This document shows positions 4,776 through 63,461 of a DNA stretch of 64,000 nucleotides, in pieces. Under the pieces are notes generated by a model that saw only the letters and a list, made by a program, of their open reading frames with translations, was not told the DNA's origin and did no database searches. Within the stretch, counting starts at the first letter, position 1. Each line of letters begins with the position of its first letter. Origin of the DNA: Nymphaea colorata (taxonomy: Eukaryota; Streptophyta; Magnoliopsida; Nymphaeales; Nymphaeaceae); assembly GCF_008831285.2 (NCBI RefSeq), contig NC_045141.1:1118001-1182000 (forward strand). Reading direction: 5' to 3'. A program made the position numbers and the translations under genes.

Positions 4776-7700
4776 TGTTCGCATCCCCAAAATTCATTTT
4801 TGTTTTTGGAGTGCTCCAAAAAAAATGATGTTTTGTTTTGAAATGAGAAATAAAGGAACTCAGTTGTCGGTGCGAGAATCGACCATTTCGTGCGCCTTTG
4901 CTGTGGGTAATCAATCAAAGTATGTTTTATCTTTGATGCATTTCGTTTTGGTCTAAACATCTTCTTCATTTTAAATGCGGTGTTGTGTTTGAGAAAATGT
5001 TGAAGATTTGATGTTTTAAACTTTTTGAAAAAATTCTTGAAGAATCACTTGAGAGTGTAAAATATTTTGATTTGAGAAAATCTTGAATTGAGAAAATCTT
5101 GAACTGAGAAATCTTTACAAGTACCATTTGGAAAACTTGGGAAATCATTTTTGAAGTGGATTTAATGTTCTTTTAAGACTTTAAGTAGGTTTATGTTTTA
5201 CTCTGATTTGATTACTACATAGTTAGAGTTTCATCTCATTTTGCTTAAGTTCTTTTGTAGAGGTGTCTGTGATCATAAGTGATGTTAAGTGAGTGTGAAT
5301 GCATGAATGCATTGGTCATACATGATTAAAAGAGAATAATTCATTCATACCATAACATTCATTTAAAAGCATTCCTACCATCACATGCATCTAAGTTTCT
5401 CATTTTTATTTATAAGAATGTCATAAATATTGTTATAAGAAAACAAAAGTTTTGAAAATAAAAGGGAGTTGTAGACCATCAAGCATGATTTCAATATTGG
5501 GTCATTATTTGATTTTTTGTCTTAGTGAAGTCGTTAAATAGGAAGTTAAAACCTTAGATCTTTGGAGAAAAATATCCAAAAAAATGAAATACTCCCATAG
5601 AAAGAAAGAGAGAGAGAAAGAGATTTTATAAATCACTAAATGAAAGATTTTAAAAGAGAGAGATACATATCTTTATATGTATTTTATATGTATATACGTA
5701 CATGTATATATGTATATGTATATATATATGTTCACATATATATGTGAAAATTTATGAAAATGAAGTATTAACTTAAAAAAGGAGGAAAAAAAGATCTTAA
5801 AAGAGAGAGAGAGAGAGAGAGAGAGATGCACATGTACATGTACATGCTATCATAGACAGGCGTATATGAAAGTTTATACAAAAAATGTATTGACTCGACA
5901 CAAAGAGATTTTAGAGGAAAAAAGATAGAAATGTATATATATATATATATATATAAAATTTGTAGCAAAAGATATTTAACTTAAAAAATAGAAAGATTCT
6001 AGAGAAGAAAAATGGAACACACACATATGCATTCATGTGTAATGAAAATTCATAAATCAATACGTAGAACCATGGAGAGAGAAGGATAAAGAACATCATC
6101 ATGTGCACATATACGTATTTAACATGTATATATGCATATATCTTCATGAGATTAGAAATCAAGAATGACTTGAAAATATCCGACTTTGATTTTTATATAG
6201 GCCGAAGAGGAACTTGGCTCATGCAAAAGCCTAAGCTAAGTCTCCAAAGTCTCATTAAAGAGTGTCATTGATTTCGAAAATCTTTTGAAAAGCACGATTT
6301 CAAATATTTTAGATATTAACATAAAACATTATTATTTTGTTTTTTATAAGGGAATATATTTCTTCCACCATTGGGTACGAAAGAAAATCGAGCAATAAGA
6401 CACTCAATAGGGTTCCTAATCAGACAATTAAGAAGGAAAGTGAACATAAGAATGACATTTATATGTTCGTGGATGGCTTTCCCAGGTTGGATAAACTCCA
6501 ACCTCAAAATCAACACAATAATAGAGAAGAACCTCAACCCAAACACTCATTCTTACCGTTCATTCATATATAAATGGAAAAATCAATCAACTATACATGA
6601 ATAATATCTCAAAACAAAGCAAGATTCAAGAAAAAAGAGAACATGTTTCCATCATAAAATAAAATATCATTTCACTTTCTCATGCTCTCAGTGCACTCAA
6701 GAACAACTCTTAACTCCGAAGTGAAGATTTGAGAGCTATCTCATATAGTCATGGAGAGATGAAGAAGAGAAAAAATAAGAAAAAAAAAAGGATTGAAATG
6801 TTGATTACATACCTCTAAGAAGAATGATTTTAGGGAAATGAATATCCTTTCTTTGAATGATCCAAGATTCGCCTTGAGTCAAAGCTCCAAAATGATGAAG
6901 ATCCAAGTGATCTCCTTGTGCTCCCTTGAAGAACTGGAATTTGGAGAAGCTTGCTCCCAAGGTTGGAGAAGAAGAAGAGAAGAAGAAAATAATGAAGAAA
7001 GAGAGCCAAGTGAAAGCTCCAAGTCTTCAAGTGAATGCATTAGAGGTTCCCCAAGGGTTAGCTCATGCCAAAGAAGGAAGATTATGGAGGCATTTATAGG
7101 GAGTTTTGGAGCCAAAACTCAAAAATTGATTTTTTTTTTTAATTTGACAAGATTTTCATGCAAATTTCAAATATTTTTGAATTTATTTTCAAATTAAAAA
7201 AAAAAAGGTTTTGACTAAGTGAGATTAGCCATTAGCCCTGCAAATACTCCTTTAGGGTGTGGGTAGGGCTAATGCCCACCCAAAAAGCTCAAAACCGCAT
7301 CCCAAGGGTCGTTTTTTGCAAGAAAATGGGGCCTGCACAGTGGGCAGCCCCAGTTCGAGCGACGTTGCACGCCAGGCGCAATATCGCCCGACGCTTCGGA
7401 AATCCAAGCGCGGCAGCATGCGACGCACTACCGGGTGCTGCAGCAATCGCGCATGCGCGCGTTGCGCTATGCGTGATATTATGTAATTTAATTTTTTTAA
7501 AATCAAATAAAGTGAAACAAAAAACAGAGCTATTCATACATAAAAAAAGAACATTAAACCATTTTTTATTTAAAATATGTATCAAATTGGTTTTTGTTAC
7601 AAATGGGTGGTTGACCCCATTTTAAGTGACTTTGGACTCGTTTTAAATTTGAATTGGGTTCAATTGGTCGTCAACTCGTTCTAGCGCGCGACTTAGGCTT

Positions 7701-7948
7701 AAAAACACGTTTTAGCATGAGAACGAAGCATAAAACTGTGCACGAGCGCGCAATGCTCATCAATTCGAATTTTGTTGTCTTGATTTCAGTTTTGGGTTTT
7801 GAGTTTGAAATAATGAATTCAGGTCTAGACTTGGATTTTGTATCTTATTTGAATTCGAGAGTTGGACTTTGGATTTAAATCTCGCGTGTAAAGTCGAGTT
7901 TTTGAATTTGTGTTTGGATAAAAAATGCAGTTTTTTGGGGTGACAACG
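4776..7948. mobile_element. Solo-LTR-like insertion (3.17 kb) with 5 bp target duplication ATTCT
   Basis: The insertion interrupts gypsy pol. It starts TGTTCGCATCCCCAAAA and ends TTTTGGGGTGACAACG. The reverse complement of the end, CGTTGTCACCCCAAAA, nearly mirrors the start, so the termini are a short imperfect inverted repeat; a CA end has probably mutated to CG. ATTCT flanks both sides (4771-4775 and 7949-7953). A duplicate of the host sequence at about 8399-8420 preserves the uninterrupted site. I see no internal coding domain, so a solo LTR of a large gypsy element fits best. The interior is AT-rich with GA and TA/TG microsatellites (5580-6130) and a GC-rich island at about 7300-7480. Orientation is unknown. 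Confidence 0.72.
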
Positions 7949-34200: not shown

Positions 34201-37200
34201 AGTAGTTTCAAGGTGCAAAGTATTAGTTTCGCCCATAGTTAAAATACATATTATAACATATTGTATGATATGCTATATTATGCTATATGACACTAAAGAA
34301 AGTATGCATAAGCAGTTTATGGGAAGTTGGGCAACATGTCATCTGTACTTTATTCACGGCTACAGATATTTTCTCTTTCTTTTCCTTTTTTCATGTGTAG
34401 TTATGTTTTGTCAATATAAGGCCATTGCAGACGGTGTTTCTTCTAGGAATGAAAACTGGTTTATCCTTCTATTTTGGACTGCAGTATTGCAGCAGTTCTT
34501 GGAAGTCCAACATTGTCATCTAGGAAGCATCATCATATGTGTGTAGAATTATGAATTTGTTGCTTTCCCCAATATCATTTATATCTTCCCTGTCTTGCAA
34601 CTGGATAATTTTCTTTTTATTTCAGCTTTATCCGTAACATGTGAGTTACACACCGTCTGTTGGCTGCATGAAATAGAAAATGAAAGGTTGGAATTTGATT
34701 TTGTAGGAGATCATATCATTGGACATTAATACAGAGCATTCTATTGGTCAACATGCGACAGCAAAGAAGGAGACTCTGTTATCAGAACTGTTGGATTTTG
34801 AACTGAAGTGGCCTCAAGTCACTGAGGACACAGATGACAACCATGAAAGCAAGGTTCCAGTGCCAAATACCAATTATGCTAACTTAGCTAGTCTCAATCT
34901 GGACAATTTCTTCTGTACCACCTCCAAACCAGAGATAGTTGTTGACACAACAAATGGCCAGTCAACATCAGATCTTAGCAAAGAAATGGTTGACATCTCA
35001 TCTAAAGAGTTCACCTTTGAGGTATTTGAGGAAATAGGTGAGAAGGCTACGGTGGATACTAATGGAGCAAATGAATCTTATTGGAAGGCTGACTTTCAGA
35101 AAGCTGCATCTGAAAGTCAGACAGCCGATGCCCATGTAACTGGCTTCCTTTCACCGACAGTTACTAAGTTTTTGAGCACTAGCAAGCCAATTGAAGGAGG
35201 GGATCTCAGTAATGAGATACAGTTTACATGGGAGAACAAAAACAAAGCTCAAGAACCCAATGAATTAAGGCATTTGCCATTCTCCACAGAACAAAGGCCT
35301 CGCAATGTCATTTCTGTCAGTGCTACAGCAGAGAATAAGAGTGTCAATCAGTCAAAAGAAAGTGATGATTCACTAGATGATTGGCAAGGCTTTTCTGGCT
35401 CTTCTCACTTATTTTCTTATACAAAAGGTCGTGCAGATGAAACTTTTGAAAATGATGCAAAAGAGACCAATTGCATTAAGCAAACAGAAGAAGGTGATAA
35501 TTCGCTAGATGATGATTGGCAGGACTTTACCGGTTGTGCAGATACTCCATCCCTAGCTTCAAGTTTATGGGCTCTTAGTGGTGGAGCATTTTCCCATGAA
35601 TCTGCTGCAAAAGTTAATTCCATTGATGTAAACCATGAGAATGTTTGGAGAACTATTGGTGCAGACTCCAATAATGTGGTACATACAGCTGTTGATTCTG
35701 TCAACAACTCTGAAGGATGTAATCAATTGAAAGAGAGAACTTTTTCTAATCCTGAGTCTGATGCTTTTATGGGGGAAAAGCCACAAGAAAATAACTCTAA
35801 TAGCCTAATAACACAAACGGATAACTCGCTGGATGACTGGCAAGAATTTACTGGTTCTGGAGAAATGTCCATGCTATCTTCAGATGCATGGCCTCTAGCT
35901 GGCTCAGCAAGTTCACAGAAACCCACGGAATGGATTGGATCGTACAAGTTAGTTCATGAGACTGAGACTACTAGCAAGAGCAATATCAGTCTTCAGATTA
36001 TTACTGATGCAGGATCCTGTGAAATAGAACAAAGTACTGCTGATTTGAAAGATAATATTGAAGCTCATCACTTGAAACCGGTACACCTGTCCACTTCTGA
36101 AATTGGCAATCTTTTTGGAGAAGATGAGCTGGTACAGACTACTGCTGGTTCCACAGGAGGGATTGTGAAACCAAATCAGTTGCAGTCACCCTTTCCAAAT
36201 TCAAAGTTCGGTACTCTCTTTGAAGGAAGTTCTGGGAATCACAATACCAACCATGAAGGTGACAACTCTTATGATGTTTGGCATGATTTTACTAGTCCTG
36301 GAGAACCACTTGGGGCCACTTCAAGTACATGGCCTTTAGCTGGCTCAGCAGTTGAACAAGAGTCTGCCAGAAAAGGTGAATCAACAAACATAATAAATGA
36401 CATGGAGTCTATTGATAGCAAGTGTGTCATTACTCAGAGAACTGTAGATTTAGAATCCAGAACTGTAGCACAGATTGATGCTGAATCTACAAGCGTTAGA
36501 GAGCACAATCAATCAAACCAGTTATCCTTTTCCAGTGATCAGATTGATGCTTTCTTTGGGGGATATTCACAAAAGGATAGCAGCAGCCAGCCAGCAAAAG
36601 AAATTGACGACCCACTGGATGACTGGCAGGACTTTGCTGGTTCTGGAGATGCGCAGGAGCCCTCTCCAAGTGTGGGCCCCAATGCTGATTTTTCAGGTTC
36701 CCAAGAATCTATGAAGGGGACTGAATCAGCACATATGTTGAGAGATATAGAGTTCACAAAATATATACAGTCTGAACCTTTATCAACAGAATTGCACCTT
36801 CAGAAAAGTTCTGTCAACTTAAATCATATGTCACCAGTGCCTTCCTTTTCTAACAGGTAACACTTGCTCTAAGCCTCTAAGCTGCTTGCCTTTTTAGGTC
36901 TCAACCTTCTGGTTAGGTATATAGATATGGGAGTTGTTTTATATGAGGATGCCATTATGACGCTTCAGTAGACACTGTTATTGGCCTTGAAGCTGTCTAA
37001 TTACAGTTTAAAAAGTGTAAAAATGACAAACATCACTGCCGTGGTTTCCTGCTTTCATTTTACTAACATCAGTCTATGGTGGTCATACTAGTGGTAATTT
37101 TAATCCACTGGCATTTTAATCTTTGTTTGCAAGGAGAGAGTGTGAAATCCCATGCTGGATATTTTACTTCTTCATATATTTTTTTTTTGGAAATATTTTT

Positions 37201-39212: not shown

Positions 39213-42200
39213 CATCATTGCTTCATCAATCTACCATGACGACCATCAGTCCTCAATGGAATGCTATTGCAAGCCTCGTATCTGTCAAGCTAAACGAAAA
39301 CAACTATCTTCTTTGGAAATCGCAACTCCAAAGTGCCATATATAGCTAAGATTTATTAAGGTATGTTGATGGCTCTTTCACTCCTTCACCTGAAAAATTG
39401 AATGATAACTCAACTGAAATAAATTTGGAGTACATCAAATGGAAGCGCTCTGACCAGCTTGCGTTAAGCTGGATATTGTCAACCGTTATTGAACCTATAC
39501 TCACTCAAATTATCTCCTATGATACAAACTCTTGATGCGTGGGTGGCTATGGCTAAGGCTCATGCATCTCATTCAAATATTCATATTTTTCAGTTACAAA
39601 GGAATTTACAAAATGCCAAAAAGAATAAAAAAAGTATGTTAGAATATATCAACCATGTGAGGTTTTTGGTTGATTCTCTTAGAGTTGTGAATGAGATAGT
39701 ATCTGATTCAGATCTAGTCTTGCCTACTCTCAACGGCTTGTCAAGTGAGTACAAGAGTTTTATTACAACAGTCACCATGTCTAAAATCCTACCCACCACC
39801 TTTTCTGAGTTACATGATCTCTTGCTCAATCAAGAGCGTTGACTTCAATTATTTGCTTCTAAAAGCCCTGCACAAGTTGAATCTTCAGCAACTGGCTTTT
39901 TTACTTAATGAGGAGGCTATGGTGGTCATGCAAACTATAGTGGCCATGGGGCAAATAGTGGCCGTAGCCGCAGAAGGAATTCTTGCCTTGCTGGACAAGG
40001 CTCTCAAGGGCAAAAGAATTCTAAAACTTAGCAGGTTATATGTCAATTTTGTGGGCATAAAAGTCATATTGTGTGGATGTGCTATGACATACCTAAGGCC
40101 TTTATGGCCATGGCTCTAAATGGAGGTCGCAACAATGCTTGGTACCCTGATAGTGGTGCGACCCACCATATGACTCATAGTGATGATGACTCCATGGAAG
40201 ACAAAGTTGATTACGAAGGTGGAGAAGGAGTTCTTGTAGGAAATGGTGCTAAGGCTCCAATCTCTCATATCGATAACATATTTCTCAACTCAATCTCTCG
40301 TTGCTTTCAGTTAATGAATGCAATGCATGTGTCAACGATCAGCCAAAATCATATATATGTCTCTTGTTTTACAAAAGACAACAATTGCTTGGTGGAATTT
40401 GATGCTAATGGATTTGTTGTTAGAAATTTGTAGATCAGGACAGCACTTCACAAGAGGAAAACTAAGGGTGGTCTATACATATGGATTGATGAAGCCAGCA
40501 ATGGATCTAAGCGTGCTCTTATTGCGCAGCATTCTAAAAGTCTTCCATTCAATCTTTGGCACCAACGATTGGGTCATTCTCACTTGAAGACATTGAATTT
40601 ACTTAAGAAAAATAATTATGTTCATGTGGATGATAGTGAACTTGATTTCTGTTCTAGTTGTGTATTGGTTAAGATGCACTGATTGTCATTTGACTTTAGT
40701 TTAAGTACTAGCATTCATCCTCTTCATTTACTTCATGCCGACCTTTGGGGGTCTGCCCCAACATGCTCTAGAGAAGGCTACAAATATTATCTATTGATTG
40801 TGGATGACTTTTCATGCTTTAGTTGGATTTTCCCCTTGTTAGAAAATTAGACACGCTGCCATGCTTTCAAAATTTTAAGATGTTTGTGGAAAAACAATTG
40901 GGATATGAGATAAAAATTTTCTATAGTGATTCTGGTGGCAAGTTTCTAAGCAATGATTTCTCAAATTTTCTCAGCTCAAATGGGATAAAGAGATGGCTTT
41001 CTTGCCCCCACAAGCTTCAAAAAATGGCGTTGTGGAGAGAAAACATCGCCATGTTGTTGAGACAGACTTAAGTATGATGGTTCATGCATCTCTTCCTCAG
41101 CGTTTTTTGGTTGATTCTTTTAGAACAGCAGTCCTCATCATTAATCGATTGCCTAGTCCAGAACTGAGAAATAAATCTCCATTTTTTGAAATTGTTTTCA
41201 AAGCTACTCCTCAATATGATTATTTTCGAGTTTTTGGATGTACATGCTATCCCTTTCTTGTACCATAAAGAGAGCTCAAACTCTCTCCAAAATCCAAAGC
41301 ATATATTTTTCTTGGCTATGGGATGTGTCATAAGGGATACATATGTTTGGATCTTATTACTAACATGGTTTTTATTAGCAGACATGTGGTTTTCGACAAG
41401 ACAAATTTCTTATTTTATAGATGTGGTTTTCCAACCACTAAAAGGGACGTTGGAAAATAGATTTCCAATCACCTAGACACGCCTCCAATTGAGACTCAAA
41501 AAGAAAACAACTCCAAGAAAGTTGGATATGATCCAAATGGATCCAAATATATATTCTAAATATATATTCTTACCTGGTCCAAATTCATGGGAAGAAGATC
41601 AGATTCAAAACAACCATTCGATCAATTCAATTGATGAAAATCATACTTATAATAATGGGATTCAAGAAAATGCTATTGATCAATCTCCTCCAAATCTCAC
41701 CATTGACATCTCAAGTAGGACTCACCTCATGATTACAAGGTCCCAAGATGGAACTAGGCGACCCAAGATTTACATGGCTGCTACGTCTATAGAAGAAAGA
41801 GAACCAGAAAGCATTGAGGAGGCTTTAAAAGACCCACGATGGATCAAAGCCATGCAAAGTGAAATGGATGCCCTTTACAAAAATCAAACTTGGAACCTTG
41901 TTGCACCAGCTAAGGGAGTTAATCTAGTCGGATGTAAGTGGGTTTTTAAAATCAAGAGATGTTTAGATAGGACAATTGCTCACTACAAGGCCAGACTTAT
42001 GGCCAAAGGTTATAGCCAGAGGAAAGGAATTGATTATTCTCACACATATAGTCCAGTGATAAAACCTACTACTATACGGGTCGTCATCTCTATTGTTGTG
42101 TCCAAAAGTAGGACTATCTATCAATTGGATGTTAACAATGCATTTCTTCATGTAAAGGAATAAGTTTTTATGACTCAACCACCAGCATTTGAGAATACAA

Positions 42201-48738: not shown

Positions 48739-48746
48739 CTTTGTTG
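48739..48746. repeat. Left target-site duplication CTTTGTTG
   Basis: Eight bases identical to 51535-51542, immediately outside the TAGGGCTGCACA terminus. Eight base pairs is the hallmark length of hAT transposons. Confidence 0.92.
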
Positions 48747-51534
48747 TAGGGCTGCACATGAGCCGAGCCGAGCCCGAGCTTGGCCAGCTCGAGCTCGACT
48801 CGAGCTCGAGACGAGCTTCTTAGAACTAGCTCGAGCTCGACTCGACTACACAAAGTCGAGCTCGAGCTCGACTCGATTAACCCATTGAACTCGATTAACC
48901 CATTTAACACATTAACTTGTTTAGCATTTACTCGTTTAACTTTAACTCTTTTAGCTTGTTTAGGCACTAACTCGTCTAGCTCGTTTAGACGTTAAATCGT
49001 TTAGCTAGTTTAGCTGTTTAGGCATTTACTTGTTTAGCTCATTTAGGCATTTAAATCCTTTAACTCGTTTGGGCATCTAACTCGTATCAATTAATGGATG
49101 AGAACCACGTCTTCTTCACCATCATCTGTGATATAACAATGCACATCTTCATCATCATCTGCAGATATAAGAATGCTGTTAACATTTGAAAATTATGCAA
49201 AAGCTCAGCTCAGCTCAAGCAAAAAGCACTCATGGAGAACAAGGGGTAAAAGCAGCATAGAACGAAAACATAACAAGGTAGATAGAAGCAGAGAATAATA
49301 TAAAATTAATTAACATTTGAAAATTACAGAAAGATAAGCAGGCAAAAGTTAGGAAGATCAGGTGTACCACAGAATGTTAGAAAGAGAAGATAATGTGTGG
49401 CAAAATTAGGTGTATAAATGGAACGTAACTCAGACCATAAACAAAACTTATTTTACAGAGATATGCAACAAAGAGTCCATCAGAAGAATGCCAAATAATA
49501 TTAAAAACAGAGTCCCTCCAATTTTAGTTGGAGTAACTGTTGTAACCTTACCTAATTGATGAAAAGAAGTAGCATAACACTTGAAACATGACTACACACA
49601 CACACCATGAGAAACGAGGTTCAGTTATAGCTGCAACAAGATTCTGATTCTCCATAACACTCAAAGGTACCCATGAAATATGTGATTCTTTAAATCCACA
49701 AGATCGGAGAAATCCACCCAGCTGCATATTGATGGAATCAAATCTTTCTTTAGAATATCCTACAAAATACATCTTATTAACAACAACAACCAGCTGTTCA
49801 ACACCAAAACTTCGGATAAGTTGTGCATGCCCCTTTGTCTGCCCCCAACTCCATTTAAACCCACACCTACCTCAAAGAACCAATAGATGCATCGACAACA
49901 AGTATCACAGCATGATCAGCATCTGTTTGTGTAGCACCAGATATCACATTTGCGACAAAATCTTTAAGCCCTGGTGAATCAAGCATAACAACATGAAATT
50001 TCCTTGATTCAAAACGAGCAACTGCAACAGCCATAGTTATTCCTCTTTCCCTTTCCTCAACGCTTTCATCTAATGCCCATGCGTAGGCAAATGAGCCTTT
50101 CCCCTGCACTCAATGTAAAAATTAAATAGAAAAGCGATTAGGTTGAAGTGCAATAGCACTTATTAAGCAAATATAAACATATTAATAAATTATTACACCT
50201 GCTGTTTGGCTTCCTTCTCATACTTGTGCATATCCTTCTGAGAGATCCACCCCAAAATGTGCAGAAGTCTCTTCATGTCAACGTTGATTTGCCAGAATCA
50301 ACGTGGCCAACCTACACATGGTAATGAAAGTAAATAAATACAAACTGATCAACCTTTCAATAGTTCGAGTAAAATTTGCAAGTATCTTTTTTGCACTCAA
50401 CCAGAATTGGAGAAAACCTTACAATAGCAAGATTTAGCTGAGACAAGCCCCCACATTTTTTATCAGGAAGCATCCACGTCTCTGGTTTGTATGCATCTAA
50501 TGGAGCAAACAAATTTCTTGATTAAGAAGAAGAACACATATCGAAGCGAAACCAGATTGGTGACTAATTGACAACTACAACTTGTCGATAATCATGTAAT
50601 ATGTGAAATAATATCTAAATAACTACTATACATGCAATAGGAAATCCAGAAATTAACGAACCCAACAGGCAAGAATGTACAATGCACAACAAGAAAGCTC
50701 AGCCAAAAAACAAAAAGGAAAAACCAGAACCGGTGAGATGTTTAGTCATTTTTCTGCTGCTTGCCAAACAAACTCTCAGATAAAGAGAAAGAAACTCTGG
50801 GAAAGGGAGAGTATGCCTGGCAAATACTATTGATTAGCAAAACCTGAACAGATTAACTTGGAGAAAGGGTAGGGGAAAGGTTAGGAAGAAAAGAGAGGGT
50901 AAGCGGCAGAGGAGAGAATGTGCCTGGTTCACGAGAGGAATGGAGCTTGCTGGACTAGGAAGTTAGCCGGAGAGAAGCTGAAAGTTGAAAAGGATCAAAC
51001 GATGTCGCCGAACACCTGGCTGAAGACCACGAACCGGTTTTGGCTTCCTGGCAAAGGCAGCTTGCGTTGCAGTCTTGTCGTCTGGTTGACAGAAGAGGGA
51101 AGACGGGAAGAGAGAGCGCAAATGGGAAGAGAGAGTGCAGTTCGAAAGATGGAACGAAAGGCCGAAGGTCGTGGTCGCCGGAAGAGGGAAGACAACAAGA
51201 GAGAGAGAGCAGACGGGAAGAAAGAGAGGCTGTAGAAAACTAAGGAAAGACGGAAGAGTGAAAATGTGAAGACGCCAAAGAGGGAAAAGTTTTTACCCTA
51301 AACCGGTGAACCGGTTTCGCGAACCGGTTTATCCATAACGAGTCGAGTCGAGTTTAAACGAGTCGAGTTCTTGCAACTCGAACTCGACTCGTTTATTGTT
51401 TCGAGTTTAACTTTCAGCTCGAACTCGACTCGTTTATAAATGAGTCGAGCTCGAGCCGAGTTTTTTCGAGCGAGTTCGAGTCTCGAGCGAGTTCGAGTCG
51501 AGCCCGAGTTGTCTCAACTCGTTGTGCACCCCTA
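48747..51534. mobile_element. Non-autonomous hAT-type element carrying a captured host gene (Pack-hAT), 2788 bp
   Basis: Terminal inverted repeats are TAGGGCTGCACA at the left and, in reverse complement, TAGGGGTGCACA at the right (one mismatch). Both are followed by long subterminal arrays of CGAGCTCGAGCTCGACTCG words (48760-48885 and 51335-51525). Perfect 8 bp duplications flank the element. The left side also holds a series of CTCGTTTAG(C/A) words (48890-49085). The interior contains minus-strand fragments of an HBS1-like gene with introns (49607-50496) but no hAT transposase, so movement would need an enzyme supplied in trans. The right arm is nearly identical to that of the 563 bp element at 62891-63453, so both belong to one family. 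Confidence 0.92.
49607..50496 (-). pseudogene. Captured fragment of an HBS1-like translational GTPase gene
   Basis: HBS1 is an eRF3/EF1A-like GTPase that partners Pelota to rescue stalled ribosomes. On the minus strand, exon A (50496-50423) reads YKPETWMLPD then LSQLNLAI. Exon B (50311-50199) reads VGHVDSGKSTL, the G1 P-loop, and then after a frame slip LLHILGWISQKDMHKYEKEA. Exon C (50103 to about 49607) reads GKGSFAYAWALDESVEERER, then GITMAVAVARF and VMLDSPGLKDFV (G3-like), then SFGVEQLVVVVNKM (NKM, the G4 motif), and SKERFDSINMQLGGFLRSCG. Introns A-B and B-C have GT/AG borders, so the fragment was copied from genomic DNA and not from mRNA. Frameshifts in exon B and near 49870 and a missing C-terminal half make it non-coding for a full GTPase. 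The parental gene is not in the window. Confidence 0.88.
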
Positions 51535-51542
51535 CTTTGTTG
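51535..51542. repeat. Right target-site duplication CTTTGTTG
   Basis: Eight bases identical to 48739-48746, directly after the terminal GTGCACCCCTA of the hAT element. Confidence 0.92.
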
Positions 51543-59395: not shown

Positions 59396-62300
59396 GATTA
59401 TAGACCACAAGTGGTTTGGACAATTTCATCGCCCACTTCATGCAGCAGCCTACTACTTAAATCCTTTTATTATATATCATTATACTTTTAAAAAGGATAG
59501 AGAGGTTGAGTATGACATATTGGAGTGCATTGATGTACAGAATGAGCTACTATCCATTTTTTTGATTTAATGGGGAGAGATACCACAATCTGATGCAGGA
59601 CATCATTGCATCTAGTTATTAGAAACATTAACTCTAGCCTACTACTTCAGTTTTTTTTTGTTATTTAAATTTATTGGTGTTTTATTTACTCTTTCATAGT
59701 ATTATTTTTCATTTTGTTGTTTAGATATGTGGTGGGATAGGTTTGGGCTTGAATGCCCACATATCAAGAAATTGGCAATTAGAATCCTCACTGAAACAAG
59801 CAGTGCCACTAGATGTGAAAGAAATTGTGTATTTGAACAAATTCACACCAAGAAAAAAAATAGGCTGGGCTGAATGTCCTTGTTTTTGTCAAATATAATA
59901 TGAATATGAGAGAGAAAGGTAAATTCAATACATTTGTTATGCATTTTAAATTTTTTACCAATTGGTTAATTTTATCCTTTTAGTTAAATTTTGTGAGCAA
60001 TTATTAGATGAAACATCAACGGGATGAACTTGCCTCCACACTTATTGCAAATGACGTTTTCTAATGCTTACATCAGCCCTTATTTACACGTGCCATGTTT
60101 CTTCAAAATCATTCTAAATAGATGAAGTTTTTTTTGCTTTTTATCTCTTTCCATCTTGCACTGATATTTTACCTTTATCGACAAAATTAGTTGGACTTAT
60201 ATTATTACTAGCTACAGACTGTTGTGTTTAACATTTTGGTACATTAGCTAAGTTTAATAAACTTTCTTCACAAAGCATTAGTTGTTTTATTTTACTCATA
60301 GCATTTCTCTTCATGTTGACATTTCTAATACTTCACACAAACACAATCATAGTAAAATATAAAAGATAAATTGAAAAAATAAAAGATAAAACTTAAATTG
60401 AAAAGAATATCAAACATTTGAAATGATCAATTGTCTTTATCAAAGAAAGACAACCAAAACTAGCCCAACCTTCAATCAAAGGGTTAAAAAAGGAACCAAT
60501 TTTACCTTTGTATAAGATTACAAAAAATTGCTAAGGCTTCCTCAAGAACCATGAAAATGTTGAGCAAAGTTAGAATTTGAAACATATACTAACATCACTA
60601 AAGGCTGACACTATATTTTGAAAATTGTACGCATATAATGGAAAATAGGATACAAAACAACTATAAAGTGTCAGAGGTGTTAGCTTATACCACAACAAAT
60701 TTAGGTAACTAAATGTATACAATTCAACAAGATTTTGTATGATTTAAATATATTGATGCAATCATGGCATGTTCCCTTTGGACCAATTTATCACATCTTG
60801 TTAATGAATCATAATTTGGTTTAGACATATTTTACAAAAGAAGAAAATCATGATATCCACAGGTCTTTGACATAACATATATAAACCTATATTATCATGG
60901 TTTGCTTAAAAAACACATGCGAGAGAAATTTGTCAGTATCTTCATATTTTCTCTACTAAATCAATTAACAGATCAAGTCTATAGAATTGAATTAATTGGA
61001 TAACATGCAAATAAAAAACAAGTGTATGATGTGTTCCAAGTATACCCGTCTTTTCCTATAAAATAAGCAGGATTAAATATTTAAATAGTTTTTTTATTAT
61101 TTTTTTTAAATAACTTTTTTAGTCTAATACTCAGACTGGCAGGGATTCATGATAATTTCTCAGAAATTAGGGTCATTTCATTATTGAAACCTTTTATGCA
61201 ACTCAAATACACAAAGTTGGGGATAAATTCGGGGTTTATGACCGTGCTATGAGCCATCATGATTTCATATATATGGACATATGAACTTGTTCATAAAAGA
61301 AAAGACAATGCCATTAACCAGCTAATCACCCCTCAAGGTGGAAGAATGGAAAGGATTCATGTGGATTAACCTAATTCTATAGAGATCATAGCTAAAAAAT
61401 GAATGAAAACCTAAAGTCAATTGGGGCACCAAAGTGAATACATACATACCAAGGATATAAGAAAACATGACAAATGTATGAGAATCAAGGGGATTAAGTC
61501 AATCCTATCCTGCTCATGACCTTGAAATACTTAAAAATGCGACAGAATCACCAAGAAAACAAACAAAGCATGGTCACACAATTTTTTGAGAAGGAATTAA
61601 CATCCATCAAGGTGGCCTCAACTACTCTACTTGAATCGTGCACCACACATAAATTACAAGAATGCAAATAGACATGAAGAAAACATGAAATATGATCACG
61701 GTCTAGAGAGAACTCCATCTATAACAATGAAATCAAGCTCTCATCCTTGACCTTGATGGAAATAGGAGAAGCTTCCTCAGAGTGCTTCTAGTCATACAAT
61801 GGCAATACATAAAGAGAGATAGATAGTTAGAGAGAAAGATAGAGCCTACCTTGCTTGACCGATTCCTTCTTCCTCTCCCCCTTCTTTTTTCCACTCATTC
61901 CTCTAGAGTGCTCCCTATGCTTGATCTGGGATTGAGAGGCTCTAAGGGGTGGCAACTTCTTCTTAAATTTATCATAAACGTGCAAGGGAGATGAAGACAC
62001 CAAGGATCTAAAGAAAAATTAATGAGATCAGATCCCTAGGCCTAGGGCCAAGGTTGCTATAGCTATGCCAGAGGCTCCAAGTTTGGCAGACGTGAGGCAC
62101 CAAGCCTCAGTGAAGCTCAGCTCATCGAAGTAGGATGACCGAGACAACAGTGGCTGGTCTGGCAGTGGTAGTTCTAGCAGTGGTTTTGGTGTTGATTCTA
62201 GCTATGGTTGGGTCACTAAGATGTCTTTTATAGAAATAGGAGATGAGATAGGGATTCAAGTGAGTGTGGGTTTGTTCAGTTGGGTTATGTCAGGAAGTGG

Positions 62301-62882: not shown

Positions 62883-62890
62883 GATAAGAG
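62883..62890. repeat. Left target-site duplication GATAAGAG
   Basis: Identical to 63454-63461, directly outside the TAGGGCTGCACA terminus of the small hAT element. Confidence 0.92.
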
Positions 62891-63453: not shown

Positions 63454-63461
63454 GATAAGAG
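63454..63461. repeat. Right target-site duplication GATAAGAG
   Basis: Identical to 62883-62890, immediately after the terminal TGTGCAGCCCTA. Confidence 0.92.

Follow-up and report, generated by a model that had tools for sequence, protein, structure and literature searches.

The locus at positions 48747–51534 of the 64-kb window (the whole stretch of DNA analysed here) raises the question of how exons and introns of an HBS1 gene came to lie between the ends of a transposon, and of what became of them there. Our reading, held with high confidence, is that this locus is a non-autonomous Pack-TYPE hAT transposon that captured HBS1 genomic DNA, was dispersed and now carries a broken cargo. A Pack-type hAT element with captured HBS1 exons and introns had already been proposed in the original prediction, and it is supported by the TIRs and duplications (TSD), by a donor gene on contig C10 and by the occurrence of the element at four loci.

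Ends and contents of the element

The element and its parts are located in the window as follows.

48747–51534, hAT element carrying the HBS1 piece, 2,788 bp, with TIRs and flanking TSD
48739–48746, no strand, left TSD CTTTGTTG
51535–51542, no strand, right TSD CTTTGTTG
48747–48758, plus strand, left TIR TAGGGCTGCACA
51523–51534, minus strand, right TIR TAGGGGTGCACA, one mismatch against the left
48747–49145, no strand, 3′ end of the element (in the sense of the transposase), with CGAGCTCGAG-type subterminal repeats and TTTAG/CTCG repeats, mostly common to family members
49146–49185, minus strand, 40-bp remnant of an RWDD1-like host gene, 39/40 bases as in a gene on contig C6
49234–50505, minus strand, captured HBS1 segment, 1.27 kb, colinear with the C10 gene, introns included
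49234–49605, minus strand, part of the next HBS1 intron, from which 43 bp present in the C10 gene are missing in all four copies
49606–50103, minus strand, HBS1 G-domain exon (ERERGIT, DSPG, NKM), with a shared 9-bp insertion and, in the window copy, two 1-bp deletions
50104–50198, minus strand, complete GT-AG HBS1 intron, GTGTAA...TGCAG
50199–50311, minus strand, HBS1 P-loop exon (GHVDSGKST), with a 2-bp insertion found in each of the four copies and, in the window copy, a stop
50312–50422, minus strand, complete GT-AG HBS1 intron, GTAAGG...TGTAG
50423–50503, minus strand, partial HBS1 exon (PLDAYKPETWMLPDKK...LNLAI), starting mid-exon at the capture junction
50506–51534, minus strand, 5′ terminal part of the element with its leader, preceding HBS1 in the same sense

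The ends are those expected of a hAT transposon, and the three terminal features named in the original prediction were all recovered. The 12-bp TIRs agree at 11 of 12 positions, a length within the range of about 10–15 bp typical of hAT elements, and the TSD, which has the 8 bp characteristic of the superfamily, is identical at 8/8 positions on either side. Of 61,192 window positions, 2 have identical 8-mers at the exact spacing of the element, its own TSD pair being one of them. Both ends are packed with CGAGCTCGAG-type repeats in direct and inverted orientation, and parts of the leader are also found in transposase-bearing relatives and in elements with other cargo.

As predicted, at least three minus-strand exons with HBS1 motifs and GT/AG introns are present between these ends; the frame across them is not open. 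The best PDB match of the 80-aa ORF 50109–49870 is HBS1L (5lzw, E 7.6e-20), and HBS1L is likewise the best match of ORF 49871–49554 (E 4.6e-16). Pfam GTP_EFTU was recognized in the former at E 2e-15 and in the latter at E 4.5e-5, with a score of 23.5 bits that lies below the cut-off of 26.5, while the two shorter HBS1 exon ORFs of the window element gave no Pfam match. The HBS1 piece stops abruptly on both sides within the element, its downstream limit lying in the intron that follows the G-domain exon, and it lacks the portions of the gene that lie past the G domain. Unlike an HBS1 gene, none of the element copies encodes the G-domain motifs together with domains II and III in a single frame. 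A search of the window against Rfam yielded no match at gathering scores.

Donor gene and dispersed copies

The genome searched comprises 407.8 Mb in 783 contigs, the window lying on contig C4. The search with the whole element gave 71 matches, with the best 40 of 2,003 candidates scored, and the counts derived from it are consequently lower bounds. Among the matches listed, C10:2157914–2159232 corresponds to the HBS1 part only (element positions 480–1758, 89%). When the genome was searched with HBS1 protein (24/24 candidates scored), the 15 rows obtained comprised nine from element copies, contig C312 included, one from C10 and five from distant GTPases with 36–45% identity. The C10 exons that match the captured region contain no stops, and the C10 ORFs, taken one by one with Pfam, encode in sequence a RanBP zinc finger, GTP_EFTU and eEF1A-C; two ORFs lying between those domains (L009:7019–7249 and 7618–7929) had no Pfam match. 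Because the match is confined to the HBS1 part, the exons are open and HBS1-type domains appear in order, the C10 gene can be considered the probable donor, or the nearest relative of the donor found. The parental gene sought in the same genome was thus found, with colinear intron positions. Since the piece includes two introns in full and a third in part, all colinear with this gene, the capture took place at the DNA level, which bears out the transduplication of a host HBS1 gene that had been postulated, and the element carries, as Pack-TYPE elements do, a host-gene fragment whose parent resides elsewhere.

Differences fixed between the four copies and the C10 gene are rarer in exons (15/673) than in introns (39/573; p 7.6e-5). 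Part of this exon deficit is constraint on the gene's own branch. Even so, the exons show few changes for a stem that was long and free of constraint, which leaves room for a donor other than the C10 gene of today, such as a slightly different HBS1 allele or a paralogue since lost.

The HBS1 element occurs at at least four loci, namely C4 (the window), C11 (94%), C2 (91%) and C6 (91%). Contig C312 was rejected as an independent copy, since its flanks equal those of the window and identity reaches 99.93% with the flanks included. Both HBS1 end points are identical at the four loci, and all four share, relative to the C10 gene, the 2-bp insertion in the P-loop exon, the 9-bp insertion in the G-domain exon and the loss of 43 bp from the intron. 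The flanks of about 1.4 kb showed no similarity between loci at E 1e-3; the sole flank match at that threshold is that of the two flanks of the C11 copy with each other. Pairwise K between copies ranges from 0.027 to 0.033 over the element, and from 0.057 to 0.060 between copies and the C10 gene over the HBS1 part. Shared junctions together with unrelated flanks at four loci argue for one capture and later transposition, and we read the sequences as a single HBS1 capture followed by movement of the cargo-bearing element, another Pack-TYPE trait, to at least four places. The TSD is 8/8 at C4 and C2, 6/8 at C6 and lacking at C11, and a perfect TSD at only two of the four HBS1 loci weighs against this explanation.

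The transposon family, an earlier cargo and the capture event

The termini of the HBS1 element are multicopy in the genome and include those of transposase-bearing and cargo-free elements. One of the latter kind of relatives lies in the window, and a transposase-bearing one on contig C8.

62891–63453, no strand, second hAT family member, without HBS1, 563 bp, with TSD GATAAGAG at 62883–62890 and 63454–63461
L049:880–7524 = C8:5785879–5792523, transposase-bearing element, 6,645 bp, TSD 8/8, identical TIRs

The TSD of the 563-bp relative is also perfect (8/8). The C8 element contains an open hAT ORF of 744 aa with RNase-H (PF14372) and dimerisation (PF05699) domains, and no zf-BED was matched in this protein at E 0.001. 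On C14, an element of 5,759 bp (TSD 7/8) carries zf-BED and hAT RNase-H (PF14372) in broken ORFs and matches the C8 protein along its length, as two pieces. The termini of the HBS1 element are therefore shared with elements encoding hAT transposases, on C8 and on C14. The original prediction had allowed that its model would fail if the termini proved unrelated to any multicopy family; they belong to a hAT family whose members show 8-bp TSDs and include transposase-encoding elements, and that objection falls. The 744-aa protein gave a best E of 2.6 against the HBS1 element in tblastn, by which measure the element is without a transposase of its own, with Pfam covering 4 of the 33 listed minus-strand ORFs. 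A weak match to the N-terminal part of the C8 transposase (46% over 46 aa, E 3e-4) was observed on the minus strand at 60096–60227 of the window.

End pairs were scanned in 17 stretches with a limit of 8 kb. Eleven pairs with a TSD of at least 6/8 were detected in 10 of the 17, and under that limit no such pair was found in L003, L013, L014, L016, L021, L022 and L023, the C11 locus being included among these. A longer limit disclosed pairs of 8,115 bp (L022, C7; TSD 6/8) and 6,954 bp (C4:2002800–2012700; TSD 8/8), as well as the 6,645-bp pair of the C8 element.

Next to the HBS1 piece, the 40-bp remnant consists of an intron end, an AG acceptor and an exon start. Its parent region is C6:6271368–6272304, and the gene there was named from two RWD half-matches, both below the Pfam cut-off, together with RWD domain-containing protein 1 as a match in PDB (E 7.3e-4). 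A sister element at C12:2275486–2278979 (L010:1487–4980; 3,494 bp, TSD 8/8) holds some 0.9 kb of this RWDD1-like C6 gene at 87%. The simplest reading of the remnant and the C12 sister element is an ancestor with an earlier cargo. HBS1 would accordingly appear to have entered a lineage that already held RWDD1-like cargo, of which a remnant of only 40 bp is left, and such a two-step cargo suggests more than one capture by one lineage. Stretches related to the C12 sister element were also seen on C15 (L058) and C12 (L013, L059). Positions 1115–1445 of the sister element match C2:13464500–13468000 (L060) at 96%, and this stretch is possibly a third captured source or another repeat.

The junctions give some indication of how HBS1 was acquired. 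At its start, a leader common to L012 and L013 is left near a TCC shared by leader and gene, and the other junction shows filler with a 17-bp repeat. This overlap and filler suggest break repair with template switching, a proposal whose basis is the junctions themselves. According to such a scheme, an ancestor with RWDD1-like cargo would have suffered a break inside the element, and DNA-level repair, in which a strand invaded or switched template at short overlaps and left filler, would have brought in about 1.3 kb of HBS1. A hAT transposase encoded elsewhere in the family would then have moved the resulting element in trans, and after dispersal its cargo would have decayed as a passenger.

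A different route, which we regard as possible if rather unlikely, is a composite capture, in which two neighbouring family members, one on either side of an HBS1 copy, were merged into a single element through loss of their inner ends. Family members can indeed be neighbours, as are the two in the 64-kb window, and a family-end-like stretch of about 290 bp occurs around C10:2166612–2166900 (L038:4613–4901), about 7.4 kb beyond the donor piece, with 75% identity to family ends over 127 bp (E 2.8e-18). In the available text of the respective sources, an aberrant-transposition model is described for Pack-CACTA (a 2026 review, PMC13317346) and maize hAT elements are reported with local insertions (PMC8903248). 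However, the HBS1 piece is bordered by the leader on one side and by filler and the RWDD1 remnant on the other, no family end lies within C10:2148000–2162400, and the C10 gene remains in place. A further proviso of the original prediction was that its model would fail if the HBS1 locus were continuous at this position in relatives lacking the TIRs; taken within this genome, to which the comparison applies, the gene is on C10 and the piece ends inside the element.

Fate of the cargo and relation to other systems

The HBS1 piece has the same sense as the transposase ORF of the family and lies behind the same (5′) end, and transcription could possibly proceed from the leader across the HBS1 exons. 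The chimeric RNA or siRNAs against the parent gene that the original prediction envisaged go further than these sequences show. An effect on the parental gene, in which small RNAs with homology to HBS1, made from the element, would dampen C10 expression, seems to us unlikely. Captured fragments are reported as siRNA sources for maize Helitrons, Pack-MULEs and Sireviruses in the available text of PMC13317346, and the inverted repeats at the element ends could conceivably pair, but the HBS1 part has diverged by 5–6% from C10, which would reduce matching. We would give little credence to a broader scenario in which the family repeatedly swaps its interior cargo while keeping the leader and 3′ end, and spliced TE-HBS1-RWDD1 RNAs affect ribosome rescue via small RNAs or decoys. 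If true, each new cargo would sit in transposase sense between the TE 5′ leader and the splice acceptor of the previous cargo.

Concerning the protein-coding capacity of the cargo, the frame of the P-loop exon is shifted in all four copies, by +2 in C4, C11 and C2 and by −1 in C6, so that in none of them can the parental splice put the P-loop exon in frame with the G-domain exon. Only the C2 copy retains a G-domain exon that is open in the frame of the gene, an observation that weighs against our explanation, and in 4/4 copies both complete introns still have their splice donors and acceptors. Single-copy changes number 12, 11 and 7 at codon positions 1, 2 and 3, a count that omits columns gapped in any copy and sets aside two columns split 2:2; four changes in columns where the gene also differs from the remaining three copies were scored as single-copy and not as fixed. 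Exons show 30 such changes in 673 positions and introns 21 in 573 (Fisher p 0.57). The even spread over codon positions and the equal rates in exons and introns indicate no coding constraint since dispersal. The HBS1 cargo is thus probably passenger DNA from which no working GTPase would be made, and the element copies should not be annotated as HBS1 genes.

For these reasons it is very improbable that the cargo is functional, whether as a TE-driven truncated HBS1 G-domain protein or as a dominant regulator of ribosome rescue. The sense position of HBS1 behind the leader, the retained splice sites and the open exon of the C2 copy could be adduced in its favour, whereas the frame shifts in 4/4 copies preclude the in-frame splice, purifying selection after dispersal was not detected by codon positions or by exon and intron rates, and everything past the G domain is missing. 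That the TIRs simply lie on either side of a second, decayed HBS1 gene, an ordinary pseudogene with elements inserted in or around it, is scarcely credible, for although the HBS1 exons and introns do lie between the TIRs, the same end points and termini recur at four loci with unrelated flanks, and outside the element the window contains no HBS1, the four exon peptides finding no other match better than E 0.12. An ordinary HBS1 pseudogene, a segmental duplication and a retrocopy were all rejected in view of the introns, the unrelated flanks and the shared termini.

The Pack-TYPE hAT element that we favour can be compared with several gene carriers. Pack-MULEs resemble it in carrying gene fragments, with those of several loci in one element, and differ in belonging to another superfamily, with long TIRs and a 9-bp TSD.

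Genic capture by hAT elements has been reported, as far as the available text of the sources goes, for grapevine Hatvine-6 (Benjak et al. 2008, PMC2528002) and for maize Ds2 and Ds-l4 (Du et al. 2011, PMC3260210), while Pack-hAT elements have been reported in maize and rice (Gisby and Catoni 2022, PMC8903248); the view that capture is less well documented for hAT elements hence understates the literature. As described in the last of these texts, Pack-hAT and other Pack-TYPE elements likewise have hAT TIRs, an 8-bp TSD, a non-autonomous nature and a host-gene fragment inside; ours differs in plant and family, and its donor, shared junctions and earlier cargo can be traced. Maize Ds2-22 and Ds-l4-354 also hold intron-bearing gene DNA in a hAT element with the donor on another chromosome (PMC3260210). 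They belong to Ac/Ds, in contrast to the family of the HBS1 element with its TAGGGCTGCACA ends, and a spread such as that of the HBS1 element over four loci is not mentioned for them in the available text. Hatvine-6 is again a hAT family, with variable interiors often matching genic introns and exons, and its members are described in the accessible part of the source with a common transposase coding sequence (PMC2528002), whereas the HBS1 element has none. In a limited literature search, no prior report of HBS1 capture by a hAT transposon was found, and Nymphaea was not mentioned among the listed matches on hAT transposon gene capture.

The HBS1 element therefore adds a clear new case to a process already on record for plants. 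What is new here is the position of HBS1 in transposase sense behind a 5′ leader and the RWDD1-like remnant pointing to an earlier cargo. The presence of donor, shared junctions, dispersal, transposase relatives and earlier cargo in one genome offers insight into gene acquisition by cut-and-paste transposons.

Apart from the hAT elements, the window contains at 34719–36860 a 713-aa ORF with a repeated DDWQ-F motif (e.g. DSLDDWQEF) and without a convincing Pfam match, and at 40071–42163 remnants of a Copia-type retrotransposon recognized by Pfam Pol_BBD and RVT_2.
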